A stretch of DNA of 64,000 bases from Wenjunlia tyrosinilytica. Lineage in GTDB: Bacteria > Actinomycetota > Actinomycetes > Streptomycetales > Streptomycetaceae. Shown here piece after piece: positions 40,744 to 64,000 of the stretch (within the stretch, counting starts at the first letter, position 1; each line of letters begins with the position of its first letter). The notes below the pieces were generated by a model, which saw nothing but the letters and a program-made list of their open reading frames with translations, was not told the DNA's origin and did no database searches. A program made the translations under genes and the position numbers. The stretch lies in NCBI RefSeq assembly GCF_014646055.1, contig NZ_BMMS01000015.1, forward strand, positions 1 to 64,000, given 5' to 3'.

Positions 40744-41706
40744 ATGCCCGCACGCCGCACGGTGGCCGCGGCCACCGCCACCACCGCCGCGTCACTGCTG
40801 TTGGTCTCGCTCGTCCCCACGCAGGCGAGCGCGCACGGCTCGATGCAGAACCCGGTCAGCCGGGTCTCGGCCTGTTACGCCGAGGGACCGGAGACACCCA
40901 AGTCCCAGGTGTGCAAGGACCTGATCGCGATGAGCGGCACCCAGCCGCTGTACGACTGGAACGAGGTGAACATCGCCAACGCCAACGGCCAGAGCCGCCA
41001 GTTGATCCCTGACGGCAAGCTGTGCTCCGCCAACCGCGACAAGTACAAGGCCCTGGACATGGCGCGCACCGACTGGCCGGCGACGAATGTCTCCGCCGGA
41101 TCGTTCAACTTCAGGTTCCGTGTGACCGCGCCCCACTCCGGCACCATGGAGCTGTACATCACCAAGGCCGGATACAACCCCACCCAGCCGCTGAAGTGGT
41201 CGGATCTGCAGACCACCCCCGTCGCCTCCACCGCCACCGGCAGAACCTCCTCAGGAGGGTTCTACAACTTCACCGGTACCCTGCCGAGCAGGACCGGACG
41301 GCATCTGCTCTACATGGTCTGGCAGCGCAACGACAGCCCCGAGGCCTTCTACAGCTGCTCCGACATCGTCTTCGGCCAGGGTGTCGCCGGCGCCCGGTCC
41401 GCGTCCGCGCCCACCGACCAGCAGATAGCCGCCGGGGCGAGCCGGTCCACGGTCGGCCACCACGGCCACGGCGGCGATGTGCCCGGCGCGAACACCGCGG
41501 TCAACCGCGGTGCGGCCAAGGGCACTTCGGTGGTCCGGGCGAGCGCCCCGCTGACGACGTCCGGTTCCGCCCGAATGGCCGCCGACGAGGCGCGGAACCC
41601 GGCCGACGGCGGGACCGGTGTCCTGTCCGTCACCCTCATGGGCGCGACGGTGCTCGCCGCCGGGTCCGCCGCCTACGCCTTCACCCGGCGGCGCACCCGG
41701 TCCTGA
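40744..41706 (+). CDS. Secreted AA10 lytic polysaccharide monooxygenase with C-terminal membrane anchor
   Basis: A 320-aa copper enzyme. The signal peptide ends VPTQASA, leaving His31 as residue 1 of the mature protein (HGSM), the first ligand of the copper histidine brace; His131 in VTAPHSG supplies the second. Cysteines pair in the chitin-binding-type fold, and AFYSCSDIVFGQG closes the domain. A low-complexity Gly/His/Ala linker and a terminal hydrophobic helix with an RRRTRS tail anchor it to the membrane. The layout resembles the Streptomyces morphogenesis-related LPMO LpmP. The RBS is GAAGGAG. A DasR site lies upstream, so chitin or GlcNAc control is likely. Confidence 0.93.
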   Translation: MPARRTVAAATATTAASLLLVSLVPTQASAHGSMQNPVSRVSACYAEGPETPKSQVCKDLIAMSGTQPLYDWNEVNIANANGQSRQLIPDGKLCSANRDKYKALDMARTDWPATNVSAGSFNFRFRVTAPHSGTMELYITKAGYNPTQPLKWSDLQTTPVASTATGRTSSGGFYNFTGTLPSRTGRHLLYMVWQRNDSPEAFYSCSDIVFGQGVAGARSASAPTDQQIAAGASRSTVGHHGHGGDVPGANTAVNRGAAKGTSVVRASAPLTTSGSARMAADEARNPADGGTGVLSVTLMGATVLAAGSAAYAFTRRRTRS

Positions 41707-52390: not shown

Positions 52391-53872
52391 TCAGCCCAGC
52401 GCCGCCCGCAGCAGGCGGGTGACGTCGTCGGGGGTGGCCCGCTCGAGGTCGTCGACGGCGTCGGCCACCTCCGCCGAGCCGCCCGTGCCGAGGAACTTCT
52501 CCCGCACCAGCTCACCGATGGGCGGGCCGCCGACCGAGCCGATCGCGCCCACGGGCACACTCAGCTCGCGGGTCACGGTGCGGCCGTCGGCCAGACGAAG
52601 CCTCACCCGTGCCCCGGTGACCTTGCGGGCCGAGGTGAAGTCCTTGCTCGGCGGATCGGGGTCGCCCACCAGGTCGACCAGCCACTGGCCGTCGTCCTTC
52701 CACTGCGACCCGAAGTCCCGCAGCCAGCCGGTCCCGCGCGGCCCGGCCTGGCGCAGGGCCTCGCCGAACGGGACCTCGCAGCGGAAGACGTCCCGCGTCA
52801 TCTCCTCGTCGAGGTTGACCCGCAACTTGTCCGCCAGCGCCCAGCGGTCGGCGTCGGCCAGGCCCTCGGGGGAGAAGTCGTCGTTGGTCAGACGGCCGTA
52901 CAGCAGGGAGGTGGCCAGGGTGTAGCCGAGCGAGAACACCAGGGCGCTCACGGGGGAGTCCGGCCCCCGCAGGTACATCCCCGCCCGCCGGTTGACCAGC
53001 GCCGTGTAGAGCGAGGTGTCGACGGTCAGCTCCTCCACGTCCTCGGGGCGGATCGGCCCGAGCTCGCGGTGCAGCCGCAGGGCGATGTCGATGGCGGAGT
53101 CCATGCCCGGCCCACCGGGGTGGACCTTGAACGACATCGTGTGCGTGTGCCAGCGCTCGCCGAGCCCGGCCACCACCGCCTCGGGCAGCGGTGTGGTGGA
53201 GAAGCGGGAGAAGAACCCCTCCTGGTGCTCCAGGATGTCGCGGCTGCCGTACATCCCCGCCTCCGCCGCGTCGCACGCGTCAAGGCCCACCCGCACGGGT
53301 GTCGAGGCGCTGAACACCTTGGCGTCGCCGCCGAGGAAGCCGACAGGCACGGTGCGCGGCGGCAGGCCGAAGCCGAGGCCGAGGGCGTCGACCCACCGCT
53401 CGGCCGGAACGTCCTCGCCGCGCAGCCGCCCGGCTATCGCCCCCGTCACATGGGTGAAGGTGGCGCTCTGCCCCCGGAACGGACCGAGGGTCGTGGCCGC
53501 GGTGATGCGCGCCGCGCACTCGTTGGCCACCACGACCGAGGTCAGCAGTCCGATGCCGTCGAGCCGCTGGGTGCGCGCGTAGGCCATGGGGACGGTCACC
53601 GTGGAGTTCGACAGATGCCCCGCGAACGCGGTGTCGTCGAAGTGCAGCCACGAGCCCAGACCCGCGAGGACGAACGCGGCCTGCCGCGGGTCGTCCTGGA
53701 GCGGCGCCCCGAAGCCCTTGACGAGCTTCCTGCCCAGCGGATGGGCGGCCCCGGCCCGCAGAGCGGCGAGGTGCGAAAGGATCTGGTTCCTGGCGATCTC
53801 CATGACATCACTGGGGATGTCGCTCGCGGTCGTGTCTCTCGCCCATGCCGCCAGTTCCTCGGTGAGCGTCAT
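52391..53872 (-). CDS. MmgE/PrpD family protein, paralogue 1 (VlmK-like candidate)
   Basis: A 493-aa enzyme of the MmgE/PrpD superfamily, which includes 2-methylcitrate dehydratase and VlmK, the enzyme that finishes valanimycin synthesis by removing phosphate from phospho-valanimycin hydrate. Conserved stretches include FDDTAFAGHLSNSTVTVPMAYA, VANECAARITAATTLGPFRGQSATFTH and MSFKVHPGGPGMDSAIDIALRLHRELG. The start MTLTEELAAWARD at 53872 lies 200 nt from the divergent methyltransferase gene. Paralogue 2 (57574-59097) shares the same blocks. The methylcitrate role is unlikely because no other methylcitrate-cycle gene is nearby. Confidence 0.85.
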   Translation of the reverse strand: MTLTEELAAWARDTTASDIPSDVMEIARNQILSHLAALRAGAAHPLGRKLVKGFGAPLQDDPRQAAFVLAGLGSWLHFDDTAFAGHLSNSTVTVPMAYARTQRLDGIGLLTSVVVANECAARITAATTLGPFRGQSATFTHVTGAIAGRLRGEDVPAERWVDALGLGFGLPPRTVPVGFLGGDAKVFSASTPVRVGLDACDAAEAGMYGSRDILEHQEGFFSRFSTTPLPEAVVAGLGERWHTHTMSFKVHPGGPGMDSAIDIALRLHRELGPIRPEDVEELTVDTSLYTALVNRRAGMYLRGPDSPVSALVFSLGYTLATSLLYGRLTNDDFSPEGLADADRWALADKLRVNLDEEMTRDVFRCEVPFGEALRQAGPRGTGWLRDFGSQWKDDGQWLVDLVGDPDPPSKDFTSARKVTGARVRLRLADGRTVTRELSVPVGAIGSVGGPPIGELVREKFLGTGGSAEVADAVDDLERATPDDVTRLLRAALG

Positions 53873-54076
53873 CGAGCCTCCTCCGGACGGGACGCCTGGC
53901 CGTGGCGCTCGCCGCGGCCTCCGAATCGGTTACGGCCGAGAGCGCCGCGACCCTCGCAGGATCTTCGGGAAAATCCGGGCGCACCGAAGCTGAGGGTTGC
54001 CGGGTCCGCGCCCGTAGTTAAGTCGACCGCCGTCTTCGGCGGCCGCAGGCCCCGGGCCACTACCGAAGGGAACGCT

Positions 54077-54967
54077 GTGTCGACACCGTTTCAGTCCACC
54101 CGGATGCACGAGGGACTCGCCAGTGATACGGCCCATCTGACCGCACGGGCCCGGGCGGCGGACGCCGTCGTCGAACCCGGGCGCCGTCTCCTCGACGACC
54201 GGTTCGCCCATCTGTTCGTCACCGATCCGCCGCCGCCCGCGACCGCCGAAGAGGCGATGACCCGGCTGAGGGCGCTGGACGGGGCGCACGGAGGCTTCCT
54301 GGCCGAGATCCTGCTGCGCCAGCGGTACTTCGAGGATGTGCTGCACCGCGCGGTCGCCGACGGCGTGCGTCAGGTGGTGCTCCTCGGCGCCGGATACGAC
54401 AGCACCGCCCTGCGCAACCCGGACCTCGACGGTGTGCGGTTCTTCGAGGTGGACCACCCCTCCACCCAGAAGGCCAAGGTCGAACTGCTCGGCCGCGCGG
54501 GCGCCGAGACGCCGTCGGTGACCTATGTGCCCGTCGACTTCGAGGCGGGCAGCTCCCTCAACGACGAGCTGGCGGCCGCCGGTTACGACGCTTCGCAGCG
54601 CAGCGTCGTCGGCTGGCTCGGGGTCTCGTTCTTCCTTCGCGCCGAGTCGTTCCAGCGCACCCTCGAGGACCTGGCCGGCGGCTCCGCGCCGGGCAGCCTG
54701 CTCGTCTTCGACTACATGGACGAGGCGGTGGTTGACGGCACCACCCCGTACGAGGGGGCGCTGGAGATGGCCCGCAAGGTGGGCGCCCAGGGTGAGCCCT
54801 ACATCAACGGCCTCACGCCGCAGACCGCCTCCGAGGCGGCGGAGCGGGCCGGCTACCGGACCGTCGACCGGGCCAGGGTCACCGACCTGGTGCGGCGCTA
54901 CGGCGGCGACGACCCGTACTGCAGCGACGACGACTTCATGGGCCTGATCACGGCCGAGCGCCTCTGA
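54077..54967 (+). CDS. SAM-dependent methyltransferase, LCM-like (TIGR00027 type)
   Basis: A 296-aa methyltransferase. It has DTAHLTARARAADA, a leucine carboxyl-methyltransferase-like core with VRQVVLLGAGYDSTALRNP, FFEVDHPSTQKAKVELL and YVPVDF, and a C-terminal YCSDDDFMGLI. GTG 54077 with GAAGGG 6 nt upstream is the start. This family O-methylates carboxylates or other oxygen groups on small molecules. It sits between the two MmgE/PrpD genes of a proposed azoxy cluster, and some azoxy metabolites such as elaiomycin carry an O-methyl group, which fits but does not prove its role. A strong terminator follows. Confidence 0.87.
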   Translation: MSTPFQSTRMHEGLASDTAHLTARARAADAVVEPGRRLLDDRFAHLFVTDPPPPATAEEAMTRLRALDGAHGGFLAEILLRQRYFEDVLHRAVADGVRQVVLLGAGYDSTALRNPDLDGVRFFEVDHPSTQKAKVELLGRAGAETPSVTYVPVDFEAGSSLNDELAAAGYDASQRSVVGWLGVSFFLRAESFQRTLEDLAGGSAPGSLLVFDYMDEAVVDGTTPYEGALEMARKVGAQGEPYINGLTPQTASEAAERAGYRTVDRARVTDLVRRYGGDDPYCSDDDFMGLITAERL

Positions 54968-55004
54968 GCACCACGGACAACGCCGCTGAGCACCGCGAAG
55001 GACC

Positions 55005-55039
55005 GAGGAGCCCGTCCCCCGCAAGGGGGCGGGCTCCTC
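55005..55039 (+). terminator. Strong hairpin terminator after the LCM methyltransferase
   Basis: GAGGAGCCCG...CCCC and GGGG...CGGGCTCCTC form a stem of about 14-15 bp with one G-T pair around a short loop containing GCAA, 38 nt after the stop codon. It insulates the methyltransferase gene from the tRNA-like genes downstream. Confidence 0.85.
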
Positions 55040-55197
55040 GCCGTTGTCCACCAGGGCGCCCTTCGCGGAAGCGCCGCTGAAGCGGTGATCTCAGAGTGGT
55101 TTCAGGCCGCTCTGCCACAGTGGGACACGCAAGCCCGAGACGGGACTGGGGCACAGCCGAGAACCCCACGCCACCAGCCCCGGAACGGACTTCGCAA

Positions 55198-55287
55198 GGA
55201 GAGATTCCCGTAGCGGCCCAACGGGGACCGGGAGCAATCCCGGTCCAGGTCTTACGGCCTTCGCAGGTTCGAATCCTGCTCTCTCCG
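55198..55287 (+). tRNA. tRNA-Ser-like RNA without anticodon, copy 1
   Basis: A 90-nt sequence that folds as a class II tRNA. Acceptor GGAGAGA pairs with TCTCTCC, with discriminator G. U8 is present. A 4-bp D stem (CCCG/CGGG) carries a loop with GG. A 5-bp variable arm has a 4-nt loop, and a 5-bp T stem carries TTCGAAT. The place of the anticodon arm is taken by a perfect 8-bp stem, GACCGGGA/TCCCGGTC, closed by a GCAA tetraloop, so no anticodon exists. The long variable arm and discriminator G are the identity features used by seryl-tRNA synthetase, which does not read the anticodon. No CCA is encoded. A dedicated seryl carrier for the adjacent pathway is inferred. Confidence 0.75.
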
Positions 55288-55291
55288 CTGA

Positions 55292-55381
55292 GGAGAGGTT
55301 CCCGTAGCGGCCCAACGGGGACCGGGAGCAATCCCGGTCTGGGTCTTTTGGCCCTCGTAGGTTCGAATCCTGCTCTCTCCG
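55292..55381 (+). tRNA. tRNA-Ser-like RNA without anticodon, copy 2
   Basis: A second 90-nt copy begins 4 nt after copy 1 and matches it at 83 of 90 positions. The seven differences preserve the fold. Position 7 changes A-T to G-T in the acceptor stem. Positions 50/63 change A-T to G-C in the variable arm, a compensatory pair. Position 67 changes C-G to T-G in the T stem. The rest (49, 57, 58) lie in a linker or loop. The 8-bp GCAA-capped hairpin in place of the anticodon arm is identical. The kinase gene starts 80 nt downstream on the same strand, suggesting co-transcription with the pathway genes. Confidence 0.75.
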
Positions 55382-55461
55382 CAACCAGTCGACCCGCGGC
55401 CCCGGCCGCGGGTCGACCCGCACCAGGAGTCGGTCCCCCACAAAAGGCAGGGAGAACCACG

Positions 55462-56409
55462 ATGCCCGAAGGCCACTGGGCCGGTGCCGGACTGCTCATC
55501 GCCAACCCCCTGGCCGGGGCGCGGAGCGCGGAACTCATCGACGCGGTGGCGCACCACTGCGGCAGCCGGGTCACCGATCTCACGGTGGTGCGCACCGAAT
55601 ACCGGGGGCACGCCGAGGAGCTCGCCGCGAAGGCCTTCGTCGAGGGCACGGACGTGGTGATCGCCATGGGCGGCGACGGCACGACCCGCGAGGTCGCGGG
55701 CGGTCTCGCCCGCGCCGCGCTCGACCGGCCCGGCAGCCCCCGCCCGGCACTGGTCAACATCCCCGCCGGAACCGGAAACTCCTTCTACCGCGAGGTCTGG
55801 TCGGACCGGCCGTGGCAGGAGGCCCTGGACACGGCGCTGTCCGGCGACCGGCCCCACATCCGGCACGTCGACATGGCCTACATCCACGAGACCGACGCCT
55901 ACGCCCTGCTCGGCGCCGCGTCGGGGCTCGTCGCGGACGCTCTCGTGGTGGCCGCGGGCCTGAGCGAGGTACAGGGCCGCGACCGCTACCAGCAGGCGGT
56001 CGCCCAGGTCCTGGCGGACTTCACGCCCTACCCGGGCAGGATCAGCGTCGACGGCAAGGTGGTGCACGACGGCCCCGTGGTCCTGGCCAACGTCGGGGGC
56101 GGCCGCTACCGCGCCGGCCGCTTCAAGGTCCTGCCGCACTCCGTCCTCGACGACGGCCTGCTGGACATCTGCGTCATCACCGGCGGTATCGACCCGCGTG
56201 AACTGCCCGGACTGACCCGGGACGGACAGCACGTCGGCCGGCCCGAGGTCGTCTACGAGCGCGGCAGCCGGTTCGTCTTCGAGCGCACCGACGGCAACCC
56301 TTTGACCTTCGAGTACGACGGCGAGGCGCAGACCGAGCCCCGGCAGCGCTACACCGTCGCCGCAACCCCTGGCATCCTCCCCGTTCTCGCTCCGCCGGAA
56401 AGGACGTGA
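55462..56409 (+). CDS. Diacylglycerol-kinase-like small-molecule kinase (VlmJ-like)
   Basis: A 315-aa protein with the DAGK catalytic fold: GLLIANPLAGARS at the start, GGDGT at residues 70-74 and PAGTGNSFYREV (101-112), the ATP-binding motifs. The C-terminal beta domain ends in FEYDGEAQTEP. In the valanimycin pathway the homologous kinase VlmJ phosphorylates valanimycin hydrate before elimination by the MmgE/PrpD-type enzyme VlmK; a VlmK-like gene lies two genes downstream. ATG 55462 follows GGGAGA. The frame is open upstream across the tRNA-like pair, but that part is not a protein. Confidence 0.88.
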   Translation: MPEGHWAGAGLLIANPLAGARSAELIDAVAHHCGSRVTDLTVVRTEYRGHAEELAAKAFVEGTDVVIAMGGDGTTREVAGGLARAALDRPGSPRPALVNIPAGTGNSFYREVWSDRPWQEALDTALSGDRPHIRHVDMAYIHETDAYALLGAASGLVADALVVAAGLSEVQGRDRYQQAVAQVLADFTPYPGRISVDGKVVHDGPVVLANVGGGRYRAGRFKVLPHSVLDDGLLDICVITGGIDPRELPGLTRDGQHVGRPEVVYERGSRFVFERTDGNPLTFEYDGEAQTEPRQRYTVAATPGILPVLAPPERT

Positions 56410-56452: not shown

Positions 56453-57577
56453 ATGGAGCGCGTGGACAACAGCGCCGCCGCCGGCACAGGCACCAACTGG
56501 ACCTTTCCCAGCGCCGGAGACAACTACTTCACCTGGGAGTACGGCAACGGCCGGGACCGTCTGCTGAGCCTGTACCAGAAGGGCAAGGACAAGCAGTGGG
56601 ACAGCACCACCCGTATCGACTGGGACATCGAGGTCGACCCCTTCGACGCGCTGGGCACCCCTGAGAACACCCTCGCCCTGTACGGCTCCAACCAGTACAA
56701 CAAGCTCAACCAGCGTGAACGCCAGGAGATGCGCCGGCACATGGCCTCCTGGGAGTTCAGCCAGTTCCTGCACGGCGAGCAGGGGGCGATGATCACCTCC
56801 GCGCGGATCGTGCAGTCCGTGCCCGACCTGGACTCCAAGTTCTACGCGGCCACCCAGGTCATGGACGAGGCACGGCACGCCGAGATCTTCTCCCGTTTCC
56901 TGGACGAGAAGATCGGGATGCAGTACCGGATCAACCCCAACCTCCAGGCGCTGCTCGGCGACGCGCTGAACGACTCGCGCTGGGACATGCCGTACCTGGG
57001 CATGCAGGTGCTCATCGAGGGCCTGGCGCTGGCGGCGTTCGGCATCCTGCGGGACAAGACCGACAAGCCGCTGCCCAAGCAGATCCTGGCGTACGTGATG
57101 CAGGACGAGGCCCGGCACGTGGCCTTCGGACGGCTCGCGCTGCGCGACTACTACGCCCAGCTGACCTCCAAGGAGATCGCCGAGCGCGAGGAGTTCGTCG
57201 TCGAGGGCTGCTACCTCATGCGCGACCGCTTCCGCATGCAGGAGGTGTGGGAGAACCTCGGCTACGACATGGACGAGTGCATGGAGTACATGAACAAGGG
57301 ACCGCGCATGCGGGCCTTCCGCTCCCTGCTGTTCACCCGAATCGTGCCCTGCGTCAAGGACATCGGCCTGTGGGGCCCGGCCGTGAAGAAGGCCTACGCC
57401 GACATGGGTGTGCTCGACATGGCCAACAGCGACCTGGTCAAGCTCATGGCCTCCGACGAGGCACAGGCCGAACTGCTGGACAGGGAGCGGGAAGCGGAGC
57501 GGCTTCGCGAGCAGCAGGAGCTCGCCGACCGGGTGGCGGAGGTCGACGACGCGATAGCAGCCGGCGCCGCGGAGTGA
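56453..57577 (+). CDS. Ferritin-like diiron protein (possible azoxy/N-oxygenation step)
   Basis: A 374-aa helical protein with a complete diiron set: E109 in FLHGEQGAM, E139 and H142 in MDEARHAEIF, E189 in VLIEGLALAAFG, and E219 and H222 in QDEARHVAFGRLAL. Its C-terminal 60 residues form a charged helix (ELLDREREAERLREQQELAD). Diiron proteins of this kind oxygenate amines, hydroxylamines or hydrazines, and the valanimycin pathway uses one (VlmB) in azoxy formation. It starts at ATG 56453 after AAGGAGG and overlaps the next start by 4 nt, so it is co-translated with the MmgE/PrpD gene. Confidence 0.85.
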   Translation: MERVDNSAAAGTGTNWTFPSAGDNYFTWEYGNGRDRLLSLYQKGKDKQWDSTTRIDWDIEVDPFDALGTPENTLALYGSNQYNKLNQRERQEMRRHMASWEFSQFLHGEQGAMITSARIVQSVPDLDSKFYAATQVMDEARHAEIFSRFLDEKIGMQYRINPNLQALLGDALNDSRWDMPYLGMQVLIEGLALAAFGILRDKTDKPLPKQILAYVMQDEARHVAFGRLALRDYYAQLTSKEIAEREEFVVEGCYLMRDRFRMQEVWENLGYDMDECMEYMNKGPRMRAFRSLLFTRIVPCVKDIGLWGPAVKKAYADMGVLDMANSDLVKLMASDEAQAELLDREREAERLREQQELADRVAEVDDAIAAGAAE

Positions 57578-59097
57578 GTGCCATCCGGCCCGCCGCTCCG
57601 GAGGCGGAGGGGGACGGCGGTCGGCCGTCCCCGCCGCTCGCCCGCACCCTCGCGGACTGGACCGCGGGGCTGCGCCACGAGGACATCCCCGGCAGGGTGC
57701 TCGAGGTCGCCACCAGTCAGGTCGTCTCGCACATCGCCACCATCAGGGCGTCGGCCGGCCATCCGATGGGCCGCAAGCTCATCTCCGCGTTCGGGCCGCT
57801 CTCCGCGGGCGACCCGCACCGTGGCGCCTACCTGCTGGCCGCCCTGTCCTCGTGCCTGTACTACGAGGACACCCTGTACGCCGGGCATGTCTCGCACGCA
57901 GCCGTAGGGGTGCCGCTGGCCCACCAGGAGGCACAGCGGCTGGACGGGCGCCGGATGCTGACCGCGGTCACGGCGGCCAACGAGTGCGCCTCGCGTGTCA
58001 CGGCGGCGGCCACCCTCGGTCCGTTCCGGGGCCAGTGGGCCGGCCACACCCACATCGTGGCCTCGGCCGCCGCCCGGCTGCACGGAGCGGGAGCCGACGC
58101 GGGGACCCTGCTCAACGCGTGGGGCGTGGCGCTCGCCGCGCCCCCGCGCTCCCTTCGCCCCGCGGCCCTCGGCAGCAATGCCAAGGTGCTCTCCGCGGCC
58201 GGACCTGTCCGCACGGCGCTGGACGCCTGCGACGCAGCCCTGGCCGGGATCACCGGGCGGGACGACCTGCTCGAGCACCCCGACGGGCTGCTGGCCGGCT
58301 TCGCCGGGGCGCCGATACCCGAGGCGGTGGTCGCCGCTCTGGGGCGGCGATGGCACACCGAGACCATCTCGTTCAAGGTGCTGCCGGTGGGAGTCCATCT
58401 GGACGCGCCGGTGGAGTGCGCGGCCGAACTGCACCGCAGGCTGCGCCCGTCGGGGCCGCAGGACATCGCCTCGGTCGACGTCCATGCCCCGCAGACCACG
58501 ATGGTGATGAGCCGTCACGCCGAGCGCTATCTCGAGGCCGGGGACTCCGCGCTTCCGGCGCTGAACATGAGCGCCGGGTACAACGTGGCCACCGCCCTGC
58601 TCACCGGCGGCCTCACCGTGGCCGACCTCGCCCCGCCGTTTGTCCACGACCCCCGCCGCTGGGAGCTGGCCTACCGGGTCGAACTCCACTACGACGAGGA
58701 GCTCAGCCGGGAGGTCATGAAGGCCACCGCCCCGGTGGGCGAGGCACTGCGGCAGGCGGGCAAGCGGGCGCTGGACTGGGTGACCGAGCTTCCGGGTGTG
58801 CCGATGGAGGAGCTGATCGCCGAACTCGGCCCGCCCAGTGAGACCTTCGAGCACGCCACGAAGAAGCTGGGCTGCCGGGTCGTGGTCAGGATGCGGGACG
58901 GCCGCGAGGAGTCCTGCGAACTGGACGCCGGAACGGGGGCGGTGGGATCGCCGTCCTGGAGCGCGCACGCCGAGCTGGCGCGCCACAAGCTCATCGGCAC
59001 GGGCGTCGACGAGGAGACCGCGAGGATCCTCGGGCGCCTGGGAGAGCTGTCCGCCGACGAGTTGACGGATGTGCTGCGGGGCGTACTGAGCCTGTAG
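57574..59097 (+). CDS. MmgE/PrpD family protein, paralogue 2 (VlmK-like candidate)
   Basis: A 507-aa MmgE/PrpD protein; GTG 57574 overlaps the stop of the diiron gene by 4 nt. It shares with paralogue 1 the blocks YYEDTLYAGHVSHAAVGVPLAHQ, ANECASRVTAAATLGPFRGQWAGHTH, NAKVLSAAGPVRTALDACDAALAG and ISFKVLPVGVHLDAPVECAAELHRRL. Lying two genes after the VlmJ-like kinase, it is the best candidate for the enzyme that eliminates phosphate from a phosphorylated seryl-derived intermediate to form an alkene. The paralogue at 52391 may have a second elimination role. Confidence 0.87.
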   Translation: MSAIRPAAPEAEGDGGRPSPPLARTLADWTAGLRHEDIPGRVLEVATSQVVSHIATIRASAGHPMGRKLISAFGPLSAGDPHRGAYLLAALSSCLYYEDTLYAGHVSHAAVGVPLAHQEAQRLDGRRMLTAVTAANECASRVTAAATLGPFRGQWAGHTHIVASAAARLHGAGADAGTLLNAWGVALAAPPRSLRPAALGSNAKVLSAAGPVRTALDACDAALAGITGRDDLLEHPDGLLAGFAGAPIPEAVVAALGRRWHTETISFKVLPVGVHLDAPVECAAELHRRLRPSGPQDIASVDVHAPQTTMVMSRHAERYLEAGDSALPALNMSAGYNVATALLTGGLTVADLAPPFVHDPRRWELAYRVELHYDEELSREVMKATAPVGEALRQAGKRALDWVTELPGVPMEELIAELGPPSETFEHATKKLGCRVVVRMRDGREESCELDAGTGAVGSPSWSAHAELARHKLIGTGVDEETARILGRLGELSADELTDVLRGVLSL

Positions 59098-59201: not shown

Positions 59202-59678
59202 TCAGGCCTCCAGGGCCCGCTTCAGCCGCTCGAGGGTGGTCCGCATCCCGGCCCGGTTGACCCGGTGCCGGTCGGCCGGGCGGGTACCGGTGAAGGCCCG
59301 TCCGAGCAGTTCGGTCAGGCCCGACAGCCGCCCGGTGCGCAGGTCCTGCCAGTACTCGGTGACGCGGGTGCCCCCCGCCTCGGGTTCGAACCGGTAGCCC
59401 CACAGCGCCACCGGGAGGCCGAACGTGGTGACCCGGAACGCGAACCCGCGCCCCGGATCGGCCTGCTGGACACGGCACTCGGTGACCCACACCCAGGGCC
59501 CCTTGCGGTTCAGGCCCAGGAAGCGGGTGCCGCAGCGGACCGGCGGCCGAGGCACCCACACGGCCCTGCACTCCGGGCTCCATCTGCCCATCCGCTCGAC
59601 GTCGGCGACGGCCCGGTAGACCCGCTCGGCCGAAGCCCCGACGACGATCGACTCCTCCGCCGTCCACTCGCGTTCCAC
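59202..59678 (-). CDS. SRPBCC-fold (polyketide cyclase/START-like) protein
   Basis: A 158-aa protein: MEREWTAEESIVVGASAERVYRAVADVERMGRWSPECRAVW, then FLGLNRKGPWVWVTECRVQQADPG and GGTRVTEYWQDLRTGR. This is the SRPBCC helix-grip fold that binds hydrophobic ligands. Such proteins are cyclases, dehydratases or lipid binders in biosynthetic clusters. It is the last gene of the minus-strand set after KAS II, 120 nt away. The spacer contains GTTCGTCCC repeats at about 59710-59760. A ligand-binding or chain-handling role for the fatty-acyl-derived part is plausible. Confidence 0.82.
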   Translation of the reverse strand: MEREWTAEESIVVGASAERVYRAVADVERMGRWSPECRAVWVPRPPVRCGTRFLGLNRKGPWVWVTECRVQQADPGRGFAFRVTTFGLPVALWGYRFEPEAGGTRVTEYWQDLRTGRLSGLTELLGRAFTGTRPADRHRVNRAGMRTTLERLKRALEA

Positions 59679-59798: not shown

Positions 59799-61037
59799 TC
59801 AGGCCCGGGTGAGCACCAGCACGGCGTTCTGCCCACCGAAGCCGAACGAGTTGCTCACCGCGACCTCGACCGGGGTCTCCCGGCCCGCCTTGGCCACCAC
59901 GTCCAGCTCCACCTCCGGGTCCTGGCTCTCCAGGTTCGCCGTCGGGGGGATGAACGCGTGCTCGACGGTGAGCGCCGTGACCACCGCCTCGATGGCCCCG
60001 GCCGCGCCGAGCGCGTGGCCCACCACGCCCTTGACGGACGTTACCGCGGGGCGATCCCCGAGCACCCGGCGGATCATCCGGGCCTCCGAGGCGTCGTTCA
60101 ACGGCGTCGATGTGCCGTGCGCGTTGACATGGTCCACCGCGTCCGGGGCGAGGCCGGCGTCACGCAGAGCCGACCGCACGGCCAACTCCGCTCCCCTGCC
60201 GTCCGGTTCGGGAGCCGTGGCGTGGTGCGCGTCGGCCGAAGCGCCGTAGCCGCTGACCAGGGCGCGCACATGAGCGCCGCGGGCCCTGGCGTGCTCGACC
60301 CGTTCCAGGACGAGGACGGCGGCCCCCTCGCCCGGAACGAAGCCGTCGCGGTCCACATCGAACGGCCGCGAGGCCGCCGCCGGGTCGTCACGCCGCTGCG
60401 ACAGCGCTCCCATCTGGCTGAACCCGGAGACGATCGACGGCACCAGGCACGCCTCGGTCCCCCCGGTGATCACCACGTCGCACAGCCCGCTGCGCAGCAG
60501 CTCACGGGCCATACCCACCGCGGTGGTCCCCGAGGCGCAGGCCGTCGCCGTGACGAAGTTCGGGCCCTGGGCACCGCACTCCATCGCGACATAGCCGGCC
60601 GACATGTTCACCGACAGCATCGGGATCAGCAGGGCCGAGACACGCTGCGGTCCCTCGTCCCGCAGCGTGTTGTGCTGTTTCTCCCAGGTCGCCGCGCCGC
60701 CGATGCCGTTGCCGAGCACGACCCCGATCCGGGCGCCGTCCCAGGTGGACGGGTCGAGGCCCGAGTCGGCCAGCGCCTCCGCGGCCGCGGCGACGGCGAA
60801 CTGGCTGCTGCGGTCGAGCCGCCAGGCCTTCTTGCGCCCGACGGCCTTCGCCGCGTCGAAGTCGGCGACCATGCACCCGAAGTCGGCCGGGGTGCCTTGA
60901 AGGGCGGGCACCCCGGTCGCCGCCGTGCCCGCCCCGGCCCTGACGCGCTCCCAGGCGGTCGGCACCCCGATCCCGGCCGAGGTGACCAGTCCGACCCCGG
61001 TGACCGCGGCGTGGAACGGGCTGTGGTCGCGGTCCAT
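59799..61037 (-). CDS. Beta-ketoacyl-ACP synthase II (FabF-like), cluster-associated
   Basis: A 412-aa condensing enzyme with the full catalytic triad: Cys167 in TACASGTTA, His307 in NAHGTSTPLND and His341 in VVGHALGAAG. It extends an acyl chain on ACP using malonyl-ACP. ATG 61037 overlaps the ACP stop by 1 nt, so the two are coupled. It is distinct from primary fatty-acid genes because fabD is absent and the neighbours are a desaturase and diiron proteins. Together with the ACP and KAS III it forms a discrete chain-building set. Confidence 0.93.
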   Translation of the reverse strand: MDRDHSPFHAAVTGVGLVTSAGIGVPTAWERVRAGAGTAATGVPALQGTPADFGCMVADFDAAKAVGRKKAWRLDRSSQFAVAAAAEALADSGLDPSTWDGARIGVVLGNGIGGAATWEKQHNTLRDEGPQRVSALLIPMLSVNMSAGYVAMECGAQGPNFVTATACASGTTAVGMARELLRSGLCDVVITGGTEACLVPSIVSGFSQMGALSQRRDDPAAASRPFDVDRDGFVPGEGAAVLVLERVEHARARGAHVRALVSGYGASADAHHATAPEPDGRGAELAVRSALRDAGLAPDAVDHVNAHGTSTPLNDASEARMIRRVLGDRPAVTSVKGVVGHALGAAGAIEAVVTALTVEHAFIPPTANLESQDPEVELDVVAKAGRETPVEVAVSNSFGFGGQNAVLVLTRA

Positions 61038-61291
61038 CAGGCGTTCACGCCCTTCACCTCGGCGAGCTTGCCCTCGATCAGCTTGGCGGCCCGCTCCACC
61101 GTGTCGTCCGGGCTGAGGTCCTCGTCCCCGATCGCGACCCCGAGGTCGGCGGAGGCGGCCATGGCCAGCTCCACCAGGGCGAGCGAGTCGAGTTCGAGCT
61201 CGTTGAAGGTGTCGTCCGGCTTGATCTCGTCGGCCTCGAAGCCGAACTCCGCCGTCATCAGCTGCACCAGGTGGTTGTAGACGTCGCTCAT
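61037..61291 (-). CDS. Acyl carrier protein
   Basis: An 84-aa ACP. The phosphopantetheine site is Ser36 in LELDSLALVEL, and the acidic helix II/III pattern (GVAIGDEDLSPDDTVERAAKLI) is typical of type II carrier proteins. It carries the growing acyl chain between the KAS proteins and probably presents it to the desaturase. ATG 61291 starts MSDVYNHLVQLM; the in-frame extension upstream is not ACP-like. It overlaps the KAS II start by 1 nt and lies 80 nt after KAS III. Confidence 0.94.
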   Translation of the reverse strand: MSDVYNHLVQLMTAEFGFEADEIKPDDTFNELELDSLALVELAMAASADLGVAIGDEDLSPDDTVERAAKLIEGKLAEVKGVNA

Positions 61292-61371
61292 CACGGGCTC
61301 CTCGTTGTGAATCGTGTGGGTTGTGCGGTCGTGGCTTCGGCTCTCGCTGTTCGACTCTCGGGGCTTCGGGA

Positions 61372-62406
61372 TCACACCGGTACGACGGCGGGCCAGCGCA
61401 TGGTGCACGAGCCCCAGGCAAGCCCCCCGCCGAACGCGGTCATCACGATCCGGTCGCCCGGCCGCAGCGACCCGTCCGCCGAGGCGTCGGCCAGGGCCAG
61501 GGGGATGGACGCCGCCGCGGTGTTGCCCACCCGGTCGAGGTTGACCGCGCACCGGTCCCGGGGCACGCCCAGGCGGTCCGCGACGGCGTGCATGATGCGC
61601 AGGTTCGCCTGGTGCGCCACCAGCAGGTCCGGTCCGGCGTCCGCCCAGCCCGAGCGCTCCAGCACCGATTCGGCGGAGGCGACCATGTGCTCCACCGCGT
61701 TGCGGAAGACCGCCTTGCCGTACATCCGGAAGTAGCGGTCGGCCCCGTCCGCCCCGCCGTCGCCGGCCGCGACACCGCCCTCTGCGCCGCGCCGCGGATC
61801 GCGCGACCCGCCCGACGGGATCATGATCAGGTCGCTGCCCGTGCCGTCGCTGCCCAGGTCGAACGGGCCCAGGGCGCCGTCCTCCCCGGCCTCACCCGCT
61901 CGCAGCACCACGGCCCCCGCGCCGTCCCCGAAGATCGCCCTGGTGGAGCGGTCGCCGGGGTCGATGATGGTCGAGAAGGTGTCGGCGCCCACGACGAGCA
62001 CCCGGTCCGCCGTGCTGGTCGCGATCAGCCCCGCCGCCGTGGCCAGCGCGTACACGAAGCCCGTGCAGACGGCGACCACGTCGAAGGCCGAGATCGTGCC
62101 CAGTCCCAGCCGGGAGGCGACCAGCGGAGCCGTCGCGGGGCACAACCGGTCCGGAGTGGTGGTGGCCAGGACCAGGGCGTCCACCGACTCGACGCCGGCC
62201 GACTTCAGTGCCCGGCCACCCGCCTCGACGGCCAGGTCCGAGGTCGCCATCGAGGCGTCGGCGATGTGCCGCTGCCCGATCCCCGTCCGGCTGCGGATCC
62301 ACTCGTCGGTGGTGTCCAGGGTCCTGGACAGGTCCTCGTTGGTCTCCACCCGCGGCGGCAGCCACGTGCCGAGCCCGGACACCACCGCCGCGCGCCCGGT
62401 GGTCAT
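61372..62406 (-). CDS. Beta-ketoacyl-ACP synthase III (FabH-like), cluster-associated
   Basis: A 344-aa FabH-type enzyme that starts chains from an acyl-CoA. The catalytic residues are Cys114 in VVAVCTGFVYAL, His265 in VAHQANLR and Asn295 in RVGNTAAAS. The insertion GSDGTGSDLIMIPSGGSRDPRRGAEGG near the active site is as in FabH. Its ATG at 62406 overlaps the desaturase stop by 4 nt (ATGA), indicating one operon from the ferritin-like gene to KAS II. The choice of starter unit cannot be told from sequence. Confidence 0.93.
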   Translation of the reverse strand: MTTGRAAVVSGLGTWLPPRVETNEDLSRTLDTTDEWIRSRTGIGQRHIADASMATSDLAVEAGGRALKSAGVESVDALVLATTTPDRLCPATAPLVASRLGLGTISAFDVVAVCTGFVYALATAAGLIATSTADRVLVVGADTFSTIIDPGDRSTRAIFGDGAGAVVLRAGEAGEDGALGPFDLGSDGTGSDLIMIPSGGSRDPRRGAEGGVAAGDGGADGADRYFRMYGKAVFRNAVEHMVASAESVLERSGWADAGPDLLVAHQANLRIMHAVADRLGVPRDRCAVNLDRVGNTAAASIPLALADASADGSLRPGDRIVMTAFGGGLAWGSCTMRWPAVVPV

Positions 62407-63485
62407 CGTGTCGCCCCGGTGGGGGCCGCCTCGAGCCGGCGGACCTCTTCGCTGACCTCGCCGAGGTATCCGGAGACCTCGCGGTACGAACCGAGCACCG
62501 TGGTCTCGTGGTACGGCAGCCCCTTGCGCAGGCAGTAGTCCTTCACCAGCGGCTGCGCCCGGCGCAGATTGCCGCGCGGCATGGTCGGGAAGAGATGGTG
62601 CTCGATCTGGTAGTTGAGCCCGCCGTAGAAGAACTGGGTGACGGGGTTCGGACGCAGGTTGCGCGAGGTGACGACCTGCCGGGTGAGCCAGTCCCACTCC
62701 TCGCCGTCGCCGTCGCGAACGGGCAGCCCCTTGTGGTTCGGGGCGAAGAGCATGCCCATGTACAGGCCGAACAGGGCCTGGTGGATCACGATGAACACGA
62801 CCGCCTTGAGCGGGGACAGGACATGGAACACGCCCCAGAGGTACGCGGCCAGGTGCAGGGTGAGCGCGGTCAGCTCCATCTTCTTGTAGCGCTTGAGGGC
62901 GCCCCTGCGGGCGGCGATGTAGCCCGACAGGTGCAGCCGAAGGCCCTCCATCAGCACCGTGACGTAGAACATCCACGACTGGTGCCGCACGATGAACCGG
63001 GCCACCGCGCCCTGGCGGCGCTCGCTGTGACCGGGGTCGAAGATGACCTGGCGGCGCAGGATGTCGGGGTCCTTGGACAGGTGGTTGGGGAAGTTGTGGT
63101 GCGCGGTGTGGTGGCCCACCCACCAGCCGAAGCTCACCCCGGACAGCAGATTGCCGTGCACATAGCCGACGATCTCGTTGCCGAGCCTTCGGCCGGTGAT
63201 CTGCCGGTGGCCGGCGTCATGGCCGATCAGGTCGGTCTGTGTGCTGGCGAAGGCGATGGCGACCGCGAGAGCCGCCTGCCACCAGGAGTCGCCCAGGAGG
63301 GCGAAGGCGGTCCAGCACACGGCGAGCAGCATCGCGTTCTGGACGATCTTGTAGGTGAAGTAGCCGGGGCGTGAGTCCATCAGCCCGGCTGCCTTGACCA
63401 GGCGGGACACCTCGTCGAAGCTCCCGCTGTGGGCGAGCGCCGACGCCGAGGTGTCCACCCCGTCCGCGTGGCCGAGTTCGGTCAT
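62403..63485 (-). CDS. Membrane fatty-acid desaturase (diiron, three histidine boxes)
   Basis: A 360-aa membrane desaturase with HDAGH (residues 89-93), HHTAHH (125-130) and QIEHHLFP (293-300), the three histidine boxes that bind the diiron centre. Four to six hydrophobic helices surround them. It introduces a double bond into an acyl chain, here probably ACP-bound or free. It overlaps both neighbours by 4 nt. In an azoxy context it could give the enyl chain found, for example, in elaiomycin-type compounds; that is an inference. Confidence 0.93.
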   Translation of the reverse strand: MTELGHADGVDTSASALAHSGSFDEVSRLVKAAGLMDSRPGYFTYKIVQNAMLLAVCWTAFALLGDSWWQAALAVAIAFASTQTDLIGHDAGHRQITGRRLGNEIVGYVHGNLLSGVSFGWWVGHHTAHHNFPNHLSKDPDILRRQVIFDPGHSERRQGAVARFIVRHQSWMFYVTVLMEGLRLHLSGYIAARRGALKRYKKMELTALTLHLAAYLWGVFHVLSPLKAVVFIVIHQALFGLYMGMLFAPNHKGLPVRDGDGEEWDWLTRQVVTSRNLRPNPVTQFFYGGLNYQIEHHLFPTMPRGNLRRAQPLVKDYCLRKGLPYHETTVLGSYREVSGYLGEVSEEVRRLEAAPTGATR

Positions 63486-64000
63486 ATCGCTTCCTCCAGC
63501 CCCATGTAGGCCAGCCGCTGGCGCTGCATCCGGTCGGCCCACTCGTGCGCGGTGGCCACCCGCTCGTCGACGGTGGTGTCCACCAGCCGGCGGCCGGGCC
63601 AGATCTCGTAGTCGCCCGCGATGTCCGCGTGCTCCTCCAGCCCCTGCTGGAACAGCCCCTCGCGGCGCAGCATCATGTCGGTCGCGGGCAGCTCGCCCCA
63701 CATCTGCTGACCGTCCTTGATCAGCTTCAGGATGCGGTCCTTCTCCTCCGGGTGCTTCAGCAGGTACTCACGGGCGATGGAGCTGCCGACCGTCAGATGC
63801 CGGATCTCGTCGATCGCCGCGCCCCGTTCGATCTCCGAGGCCGCCGGGTCGAAGACCCGCCACTTGCGCTCGCTCAGCTCGGCGGCGGGCGCCAGCACCC
63901 CCTCGACGAGGATGGTCAGCACGACCACGCCGCCGATGAAGTCGCTCTCGTCGCGCAGCACCCTCAGGCCCAGGTTCTCCAGCGGCACCAGCACCCGGTC
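63482..64000 (-). CDS. Ferritin-like diiron protein, C-terminal part (cut by window end)
   Basis: The last 172 codons of a protein whose start lies beyond position 64000. Visible metal-type residues are E in TILVEGVLAP and the ExxH motif in IDEIRHLTVG, followed by a helical stretch (EKDRILKLIKDGQQMWGELPATD) and a C-terminal YEIWPGRRLVD. The pattern resembles VlmB-like or other helical diiron oxygenases. Its stop overlaps the desaturase start by 4 nt, so it is first or near first in the operon visible here. The N-terminal diiron half is not seen, so the iron site is incomplete in this window. Confidence 0.75.
   Translation of the reverse strand, partial: DRVLVPLENLGLRVLRDESDFIGGVVVLTILVEGVLAPAAELSERKWRVFDPAASEIERGAAIDEIRHLTVGSSIAREYLLKHPEEKDRILKLIKDGQQMWGELPATDMMLRREGLFQQGLEEHADIAGDYEIWPGRRLVDTTVDERVATAHEWADRMQRQRLAYMGLEEAI

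Follow-up and report, generated by a model that had tools for sequence, protein, structure and literature searches.

Tandem tRNA-Ser-like RNA genes without an anticodon arm in an azoxy-type gene cluster of Wenjunlia tyrosinilytica, proposed as non-decoding seryl donors

Two tandem tRNA-Ser-like genes in which a capped hairpin takes the place of the anticodon arm were identified in the window, the 64,000-nucleotide stretch of Wenjunlia tyrosinilytica contig NZ_BMMS01000015.1 analysed in this study. Their sequence, relatives and genomic company suggest, with a probability of roughly three in four, that they encode dedicated non-decoding seryl donor RNAs for azoxy natural-product synthesis. An earlier annotation made from the letters alone (the sequence-only reading) had proposed such dedicated seryl carriers, a proposal that gains support from a VlmA homologue on the contig, the co-occurrence of RNA and VlmA genes across genomes, the VlmA clade to which RNA-bearing loci belong and, at some loci, a nearby seryl-tRNA synthetase (SerRS) gene.

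Each copy measures 90 nt including G73, and both lie on the forward strand, at 55198 to 55287 and 55292 to 55381 (G73 at 55287 and 55381, respectively), separated by a 4-nt spacer. Sequence, ARAGORN and folding confirmed the earlier description of two class II tRNA-Ser-like copies with a GCAA hairpin instead of an anticodon arm, and both are matched by the RNA model R1 (90.6 and 87.8 bits, with both copies sitting in the model's seed). The predicted folds comprise a 7-bp acceptor stem, a 4-5-bp D stem, an 8-9-bp GCAA-capped hairpin, a 5-bp variable arm and a 5-bp T arm, the replacement hairpin being placed on the forward strand as an 8-bp stem with a GCAA loop at 55226 to 55245 in copy 1 and 55320 to 55339 in copy 2. 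Fold z-scores were -5.0 (copy 1) and -3.6 (copy 2), with none of 200 shuffles as good for either copy. The canonical tRNA-Ser traits present are the 7-bp acceptor, D, long variable and T arms and G73; the canonical anticodon arm (5-bp stem, 7-nt loop, U33 and Ser anticodon) is absent by folding and by ARAGORN, which made two 'tRNA-???' calls and gave 'gcaa' as the loop. A single C of the CCA end is encoded after G73. Direct comparison of the copies gave the seven differing positions described in the sequence-only reading: wobble changes at position 7 (A-U to G-U) and position 67 (C-G to U-G), a compensatory A-U to G-C change at positions 50 and 63, and changes outside stems at 49 (linker) and at 57 and 58 (variable loop). 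Just 3' of copy 2, a perfect 13-bp inverted repeat (55388 to 55417, forward strand; -29.5 kcal/mol, no T run) is a possible terminator, and a second strong hairpin lies at 55008-55036. A DNA search of the genome found no further copies beyond the pair; the ordinary tRNA-Ser genes are those with anticodons GCT, TGA, CGA and GGA. Two weak Rfam tRNA matches without an ARAGORN call also occur in this genome, at L020 (C15:187669-187738) and L021 (C12:5569-5633).

The azoxy-type context proposed earlier was borne out, with VlmJ- and VlmK-like genes in the window and a VlmA homologue downstream. The start codon of the VlmJ-like kinase (55462 to 56409; DAGK_cat and YegS_C) lies 80 nt downstream of copy 2, the distance first reported, and is followed on the same forward strand by an AurF-like protein (PF11583; 56453 to 57577) and a VlmK-like MmgE/PrpD protein (57577 to 59097), the VlmJ and VlmK names being taken from family and pathway context. 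VlmJ kinases and VlmK dehydratases are assigned to PF19279 and PF03972 in the available text of PMC9379638, and both families are present in the window cluster. The remaining genes, named from family matches, are a second MmgE/PrpD protein (52391 to 53872, reverse strand) and an LCM-family methyltransferase (PF04072, the family of Ady1; 54053 to 54967, forward strand) upstream of the pair and, all on the reverse strand, an SRPBCC (polyketide cyclase-like) protein (59202 to 59678), a beta-ketoacyl synthase (59799 to 61040), an acyl carrier protein (61037 to 61300), a KAS III (61372 to 62439) and a fatty-acid desaturase (62403 to 63500). Part of a VlmB-like frame lies at the window's edge (63482 to 64000, reverse strand, running past the window); it is without a Pfam match, has a weak NCBIfam match to R2-like oxidases and takes its name from a match (49% over 340 aa) to the gene annotated 'VlmB-like protein' in NZ_CP108789. 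Past the window, the contig carries aminotransferase, acyl-CoA-dehydrogenase-fold, aldehyde dehydrogenase, VlmA-like and SARP genes; the acyl-CoA dehydrogenase-fold gene (L009:6806-7939) is a candidate VlmH-type flavin-dependent N-hydroxylase, so named from context. The VlmA homologue (contig 69924-70955, L009:9925-10956; PF09924, LPG_synthase_C, E 1e-66) lies 14.5 kb downstream of the RNA pair and 5.9 kb past the window. The earlier proposal had been staked on VlmA- or VlmL-like genes near the cluster; VlmA was found on the contig, and a VlmL-type dedicated SerRS was not found in the genome, which has a single SerRS match (one Seryl_tRNA_N match). Elsewhere in the window, a secreted protein at 40744-41706 carries HGSMQNPVSR directly after its signal, and we take it to resemble an AA10 lytic polysaccharide monooxygenase.

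The pair belongs to a larger RNA family, whose members are marked by an R1 score above 70 bits, a non-anticodon hairpin, a SARP-type repeat and VlmA in the genome, all found for the window copies. A DNA search of 199 relatives gave matches in 18 genomes, some confined to the T arm, while a pattern scan in which each GTDB species was represented by one genome found at least 120 stretches with a family RNA; the 80 that were listed hold 98 copies, all from Streptomycetaceae (Streptomyces, Kitasatospora, Streptacidiphilus and Embleya). Under constrained folding, none of 115 distinct members (116 aligned rows less L129:4693-4882, which has a large insert) folds with a 7-nt loop containing U33. Hairpin loops are most often of 4 nt (63 members), followed by 5 nt (25), 3 nt (19), 8 nt (4), 6 nt (3) and 7 nt (1), and loop sequence is not conserved, the commonest caps being GCAA (15) and UUCG (10). 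The GCAA cap singled out in the sequence-only reading thus holds for the window pair but for only 15 of the 115 members, among many other caps; judged from the predicted folds, the common trait is the lack of an ordinary anticodon arm. By letter, in the canonical register (+/-1), one member (L232) has letters that would allow a 5-bp stem closing a 7-nt loop with U33, and its predicted fold is a 9-bp hairpin; all four ordinary tRNA-Ser genes of the window genome fit this register.

The RNA fold, for which selection was suggested earlier from the two copies, is supported beyond chance across the family. In an alignment of 116 distinct rows that contains the window copies, two-sided changes occur at 13 of 27 pairs and 95.6% of cells are paired; the acceptor, D and T arms hardly vary (99.6-100% of cells paired), and in the replacement hairpin six of seven modelled pairs change on both sides, with 83.8% of cells paired. 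The whole structure was better than all 500 shuffles on every measure and than all slid versions. This alignment was fitted to the model; an unfitted 19-row alignment has two-sided changes in five of seven hairpin pairs. ARAGORN calls on full-length relatives are inconsistent ('???', Ala, Gly, Arg, Leu or uncalled), as are those on 14 plasmid relatives (Ala, Ser with ACU among the members, Arg, Cys, Gln, Gly, Met, '???' or uncalled), and ordinary-length anticodons are read in many members. In a plasmid gene table that leaves out RNA genes, eight of these 14 records skip a locus-tag number at the RNA position, so NCBI annotation may already carry single copies as tRNA genes. Hairpin-armed copies may be among the 100 tRNA genes reported, together with a valanimycin-like cluster, for Kitasatospora griseola in the available text of PMC4384148. 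Copy number is high in some genomes: G101, G269, G279, G285, G301, G313 and G379 have 10-11 R1 matches each, many of them dispersed (up to 11 candidates were scored per genome). In G101, nine of ten copies lie within ~250 kb of the chromosome ends, on the minus strand at the left and the plus strand at the right, and four tandem copies with a triple TCAG repeat, VlmA and a SerRS gene nearby are found at G343:C1:2802910-2803396 (L237).

A scan of upstream repeats found a common element before these genes. The direct repeat TCAG-N7-TCAG (11-bp period), at 55091 to 55105 on the forward strand in the window and the predicted activator site of the pair, occurs in the 160 nt preceding 77 of 82 copies at the listed loci (the window's among them; 17 of the 98 copies were left out as tandem followers or for having less than 100 nt upstream), compared to 1.5% of 5000 random stretches from the same loci. 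It precedes 50 of 54 first copies at loci without azoxy neighbours. On the window contig it occurs once in ~100 kb, counting both strands, and was not found before other genes of the cluster. No sigma-70 promoter was detected at 54900-55500 or in any of the 82 upstream stretches. Direct repeats spaced by 11 or 22 bp are the binding sites of SARP activators (PMC10936776; PMC8780764), and in the valanimycin cluster sites of three heptamers for the SARP VlmI precede vlmJ and vlmA-vlmH (PMC10972967). Given the common TCAG repeat, the SARP repeat spacing and the VlmI sites, the dispersed copies seem to belong to a single regulon, whose repeats a SARP would bind.

Distribution ties the RNA to VlmA. 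In a census of 394 family genomes (RNA at R1 E<=1e-13, VlmA at E<=1e-70), the RNA was found in 41, VlmA in 63 and both in 40; VlmA was thus present in 40 of 41 RNA-positive compared to 23 of 353 RNA-negative genomes (Fisher p 3e-37, with phylogeny ignored), and eight genus groups are represented among the 41. The one RNA-positive genome not counted for VlmA (G073) carries that gene with an interrupted frame. R1 E-values, which are rough, separate these 41 genomes from a mass at ~1e-7 to 1e-8, with three between and a total of 267 genomes at <=1e-6; because filters were strict and no more than 11 candidates per genome were scored, a recorded absence is less certain than a presence. Weaker matches occur in three VlmA-negative genomes (G010, 1.4e-9; G040, 3.1e-10; G119, 2.5e-10), of which those of G040 and G119 seem degraded. 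Among 72,556 plasmid records, 14 contain the RNA (all at 77-89 bits with R1), 13 contain VlmA and 11 contain both. A VlmA homologue at 48% lies on NC_010625 of Paraburkholderia (879179-880150), a replicon not among the 14 plasmid records with RNA. Of 32 chosen pattern loci, 29 had no azoxy gene in the stretch; the 32 loci come from 29 genomes, all of which encode a VlmA homologue. Most listed copies do not lie beside VlmA; azoxy genes occur within the stretch (up to 8 kb) at only 27 of 80 listed loci, and no recurrent neighbour of dispersed copies was found among these loci, so a role of the RNA wider than the azoxy pathway is possible. Since 23 of the 63 VlmA genomes are without the RNA, it is not required for VlmA chemistry in general.

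Co-occurrence alone does not discriminate between a serine donor and a regulator, and the four alternatives to the donor reading rank in the order regulator, other load, remnant and translational role. A regulatory RNA would mimic a tRNA and control the pathway without donating serine, either by signalling the state of serine or SerRS or by titrating SerRS or VlmA. The tie to the pathway and the SARP-type repeat would suit such a role, and the pseudo-tRNA tRNA-Other of Bacillus cereus acts outside translation (PMC3399842, available text). However, near-invariant acceptor, D and T arms with G73 are what a substrate of aminoacylation would have, the tandem arrays and the many dispersed copies suggest bulk supply rather than sensing, and SerRS genes stand beside some RNA loci, which together make a regulator unlikely.

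The VlmA loci themselves fall into two groups. R1 gave a family-level match at all 16 fetched loci labelled as RNA-bearing and at none of 24 others, so the hairpin RNA that the sequence-only reading had suggested seeking at other azoxy-type loci occurs at one group of VlmA loci and not at the other 24. In a VlmA tree of 47 rows, which covers part of the 40 genomes and leaves out L066 (interrupted VlmA), RNA-bearing loci form one clade of 23 with support 99/97, and the 24 RNA-negative rows lie outside. Within one genome (G059), one VlmA locus has the RNA 200 nt away and the other, outside the clade, has none in 20 kb. A SerRS gene lies within the stretch at seven of 23 RNA-bearing VlmA loci and VlmJ at nine, compared to none of the 24 others for either gene. 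Counting in L238 (R1 85.5 bits), which was left out of both sets, gives 7/24 and 9/24; the window's own VlmJ lies outside L009 and so is not among the nine, and the seven do not include a distinct SerRS paralogue that lies 7 kb from the RNA of G001 (L053). Each locus was covered by a stretch of at most 20 kb, which was shorter for three RNA-negative (L205, L212 and L221) and three RNA-positive loci (L059, L235 and L241). Across whole genomes, at least two SerRS matches were found in 24 of 41 RNA-positive versus 56 of 353 RNA-negative genomes, and given the latter fraction SerRS number per genome is a loose sign. The five near-full-length cluster SerRS have a catalytic domain scoring 112-127 bits (host enzyme 122) and an N-terminal tRNA-binding domain scoring 28-36 bits (host 84), L231 having been scanned as an N-end-cut piece and L241 lying outside the scan. 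Identity to the host enzyme is 41-42% in the core and 27-33% in the N-domain, compared to 78-88% and 50-76% among the cluster enzymes themselves (near-copy L235 apart). Such a diverged N-domain would be consistent with adaptation to an altered RNA.

The same divergence from the host enzyme could instead point to a pathway carrier with another amino acid or enzyme, for example a serine analogue loaded by the diverged cluster SerRS, or a second acylation, and VlmJ is missing at some RNA-bearing loci. This reading is improbable, however, as the window genome has one SerRS, so that serine is expected there, and the match with the VlmA clade is tight. It is very improbable that the genes are remnants or by-products, such as tRNA-derived mobile pieces, integration sites or pseudogenes. 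Transfer RNA genes are known integration sites, and the copies are numerous and dispersed in some genomes, but the covariation in 116 rows, the promoter repeat before 77 of 82 copies and VlmA in 40 of 41 genomes all speak against decay. Moreover, the 350-nt flanks of ten copies from two genomes show similarity mostly in 36-116 nt on the upstream side; downstream, one match of 348 nt links the two genomes. Least credible is a translational oddity, a quadruplet-decoding or suppressor tRNA. In its favour, ARAGORN assigns four-base anticodons to the window pair and some relatives, and ordinary ones to others. But the amino acids it assigns disagree between relatives, the loop is not conserved in size or sequence, and the canonical register with U33 is available to 1 of 115 members, itself a 9-bp hairpin; the window genome has four tRNA-Ser isoacceptors already. 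Quadruplet decoding was rejected because the hairpin loops differ in size and sequence.

Returning to the donor reading, an independent case outside the family bears on its generality. Genome G518, from another actinobacterial family, has a tRNA-Ser-like gene at L252:2075-2162 with a different acceptor (GGUAGCG), an 8-bp GUGA-capped hairpin and a D arm that folds only weakly in the prediction; its contig also matches the ALDH, VlmH-like, aminotransferase, VlmO (a working label), VlmA and VlmJ queries. Because its R1 score is only 52 bits, near ordinary tRNAs, the simplest reading of this one genome is a second, independent origin. VlmA was present in three of 276 genomes drawn from the class outside the family; R1 found the G518 gene in one of them and genes called tRNA-Tyr by ARAGORN in the other two. 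There was no other VlmA genome among five from the order of G518, and a phylum draw of 296 genomes gave no further VlmA genome outside the family.

The fold, family, covariation, co-occurrence, clade match, promoter repeat and VlmA-, VlmJ- and VlmK-type homologues were all read from sequence, and from here we infer a route in six steps. A SARP activator would turn on the pair from the direct repeat at 55091, and processing and CCA addition would yield an RNA of ~93 nt ending in G73-CCA. A SerRS, the housekeeping enzyme here and perhaps the cluster enzyme in some relatives, would then charge it with serine, recognising the long variable arm and G73 with no need of an anticodon. Without an anticodon the RNA would not decode, and its serine would be kept for the pathway, where the VlmA homologue would move it onto an alkyl-hydroxylamine; after azoxy formation, VlmJ/VlmK-type enzymes would phosphorylate and dehydrate the seryl part. 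The RNA could be chargeable and yet unable to decode because serine identity lies mainly in the variable arm and G73, not in the anticodon (PMC9976931, available text). The same source names the anticodon-stem pair G30-C40 as a weaker SerRS element; the window copies have G-C there, as do only 27 of 112 ungapped family rows (column pair 34-157). VlmA is described as moving serine from Ser-tRNA to an alkyl-hydroxylamine in the available text of PMC12945691.

Several known systems invite comparison. The valanimycin pathway (VlmL SerRS, VlmA transferase, VlmJ/VlmK) resembles the present one in its VlmA-, VlmJ- and VlmK-type homologues, SARP regulation with heptamer repeats and seryl-tRNA donor; unlike the window genome it has a second SerRS (VlmL), and no dedicated RNA is mentioned in the accessible parts of the sources (PMC12945691, PMC10972967, PMC4052509). 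Azodyrecin (ady) clusters share a VlmA homologue (Ady7), VlmH, VlmO/VlmB and a PF04072 methyltransferase, and their authors proposed alanyl-tRNA from the cell pool (PMC9379638, available text). Many of the RNA-negative VlmA loci look azodyrecin-like, with a methyltransferase match in 13 of 24, and the RNA, SerRS and VlmJ are absent from all 24. The tRNA-Other of B. cereus is likewise a tRNA-like RNA outside translation but keeps a Trp anticodon and is poorly charged in vitro (PMC3399842). Staphylococcal non-proteinogenic tRNA-Gly isoacceptors are likewise tRNA copies reserved for non-ribosomal use, but escape translation via weak EF-Tu binding, with changes at 18-19 (as covered in PMC4052509). 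At that place the family RNAs keep the D-loop GG, and their anticodon arm is gone. As far as is known, both the staphylococcal and the Bacillus precedents keep an anticodon. Transfer RNA-Sec shares a serylatable class II body, but the family RNAs have 7+5 acceptor/T stems and no UCA anticodon; tRNA-Sec was rejected on score (Rfam RF01852, 32.3 and 31.0 bits against a gathering score of 47) and shape. Like the family RNAs, tmRNA has no anticodon arm, and tmRNA is charged all the same; ARAGORN called no tmRNA at the window pair. Literature searches of open-licence PMC papers, as far as their text was available, found no earlier report of such RNAs.

On balance, these observations probably amount to a ribosome-free second seryl-tRNA system in streptomycetes, in which SARP-controlled anticodon-less tRNAs, some with their own SerRS, would form an orthogonal set of RNA, synthetase and transferase for feeding serine into azoxy antibiotics, with copies multiplied to raise supply and with at least two origins. 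In 2014 a review described as unknown the means by which the valanimycin pathway draws Ser-tRNA away from translation (PMC4052509, available text), and a tRNA unable to decode, if true, would be a direct answer to how seryl-tRNA is withheld and would open that question to in vitro work. It would also provide a natural RNA and synthetase set outside the code, mark serine-type azoxy clusters and offer a start for orthogonal charging.
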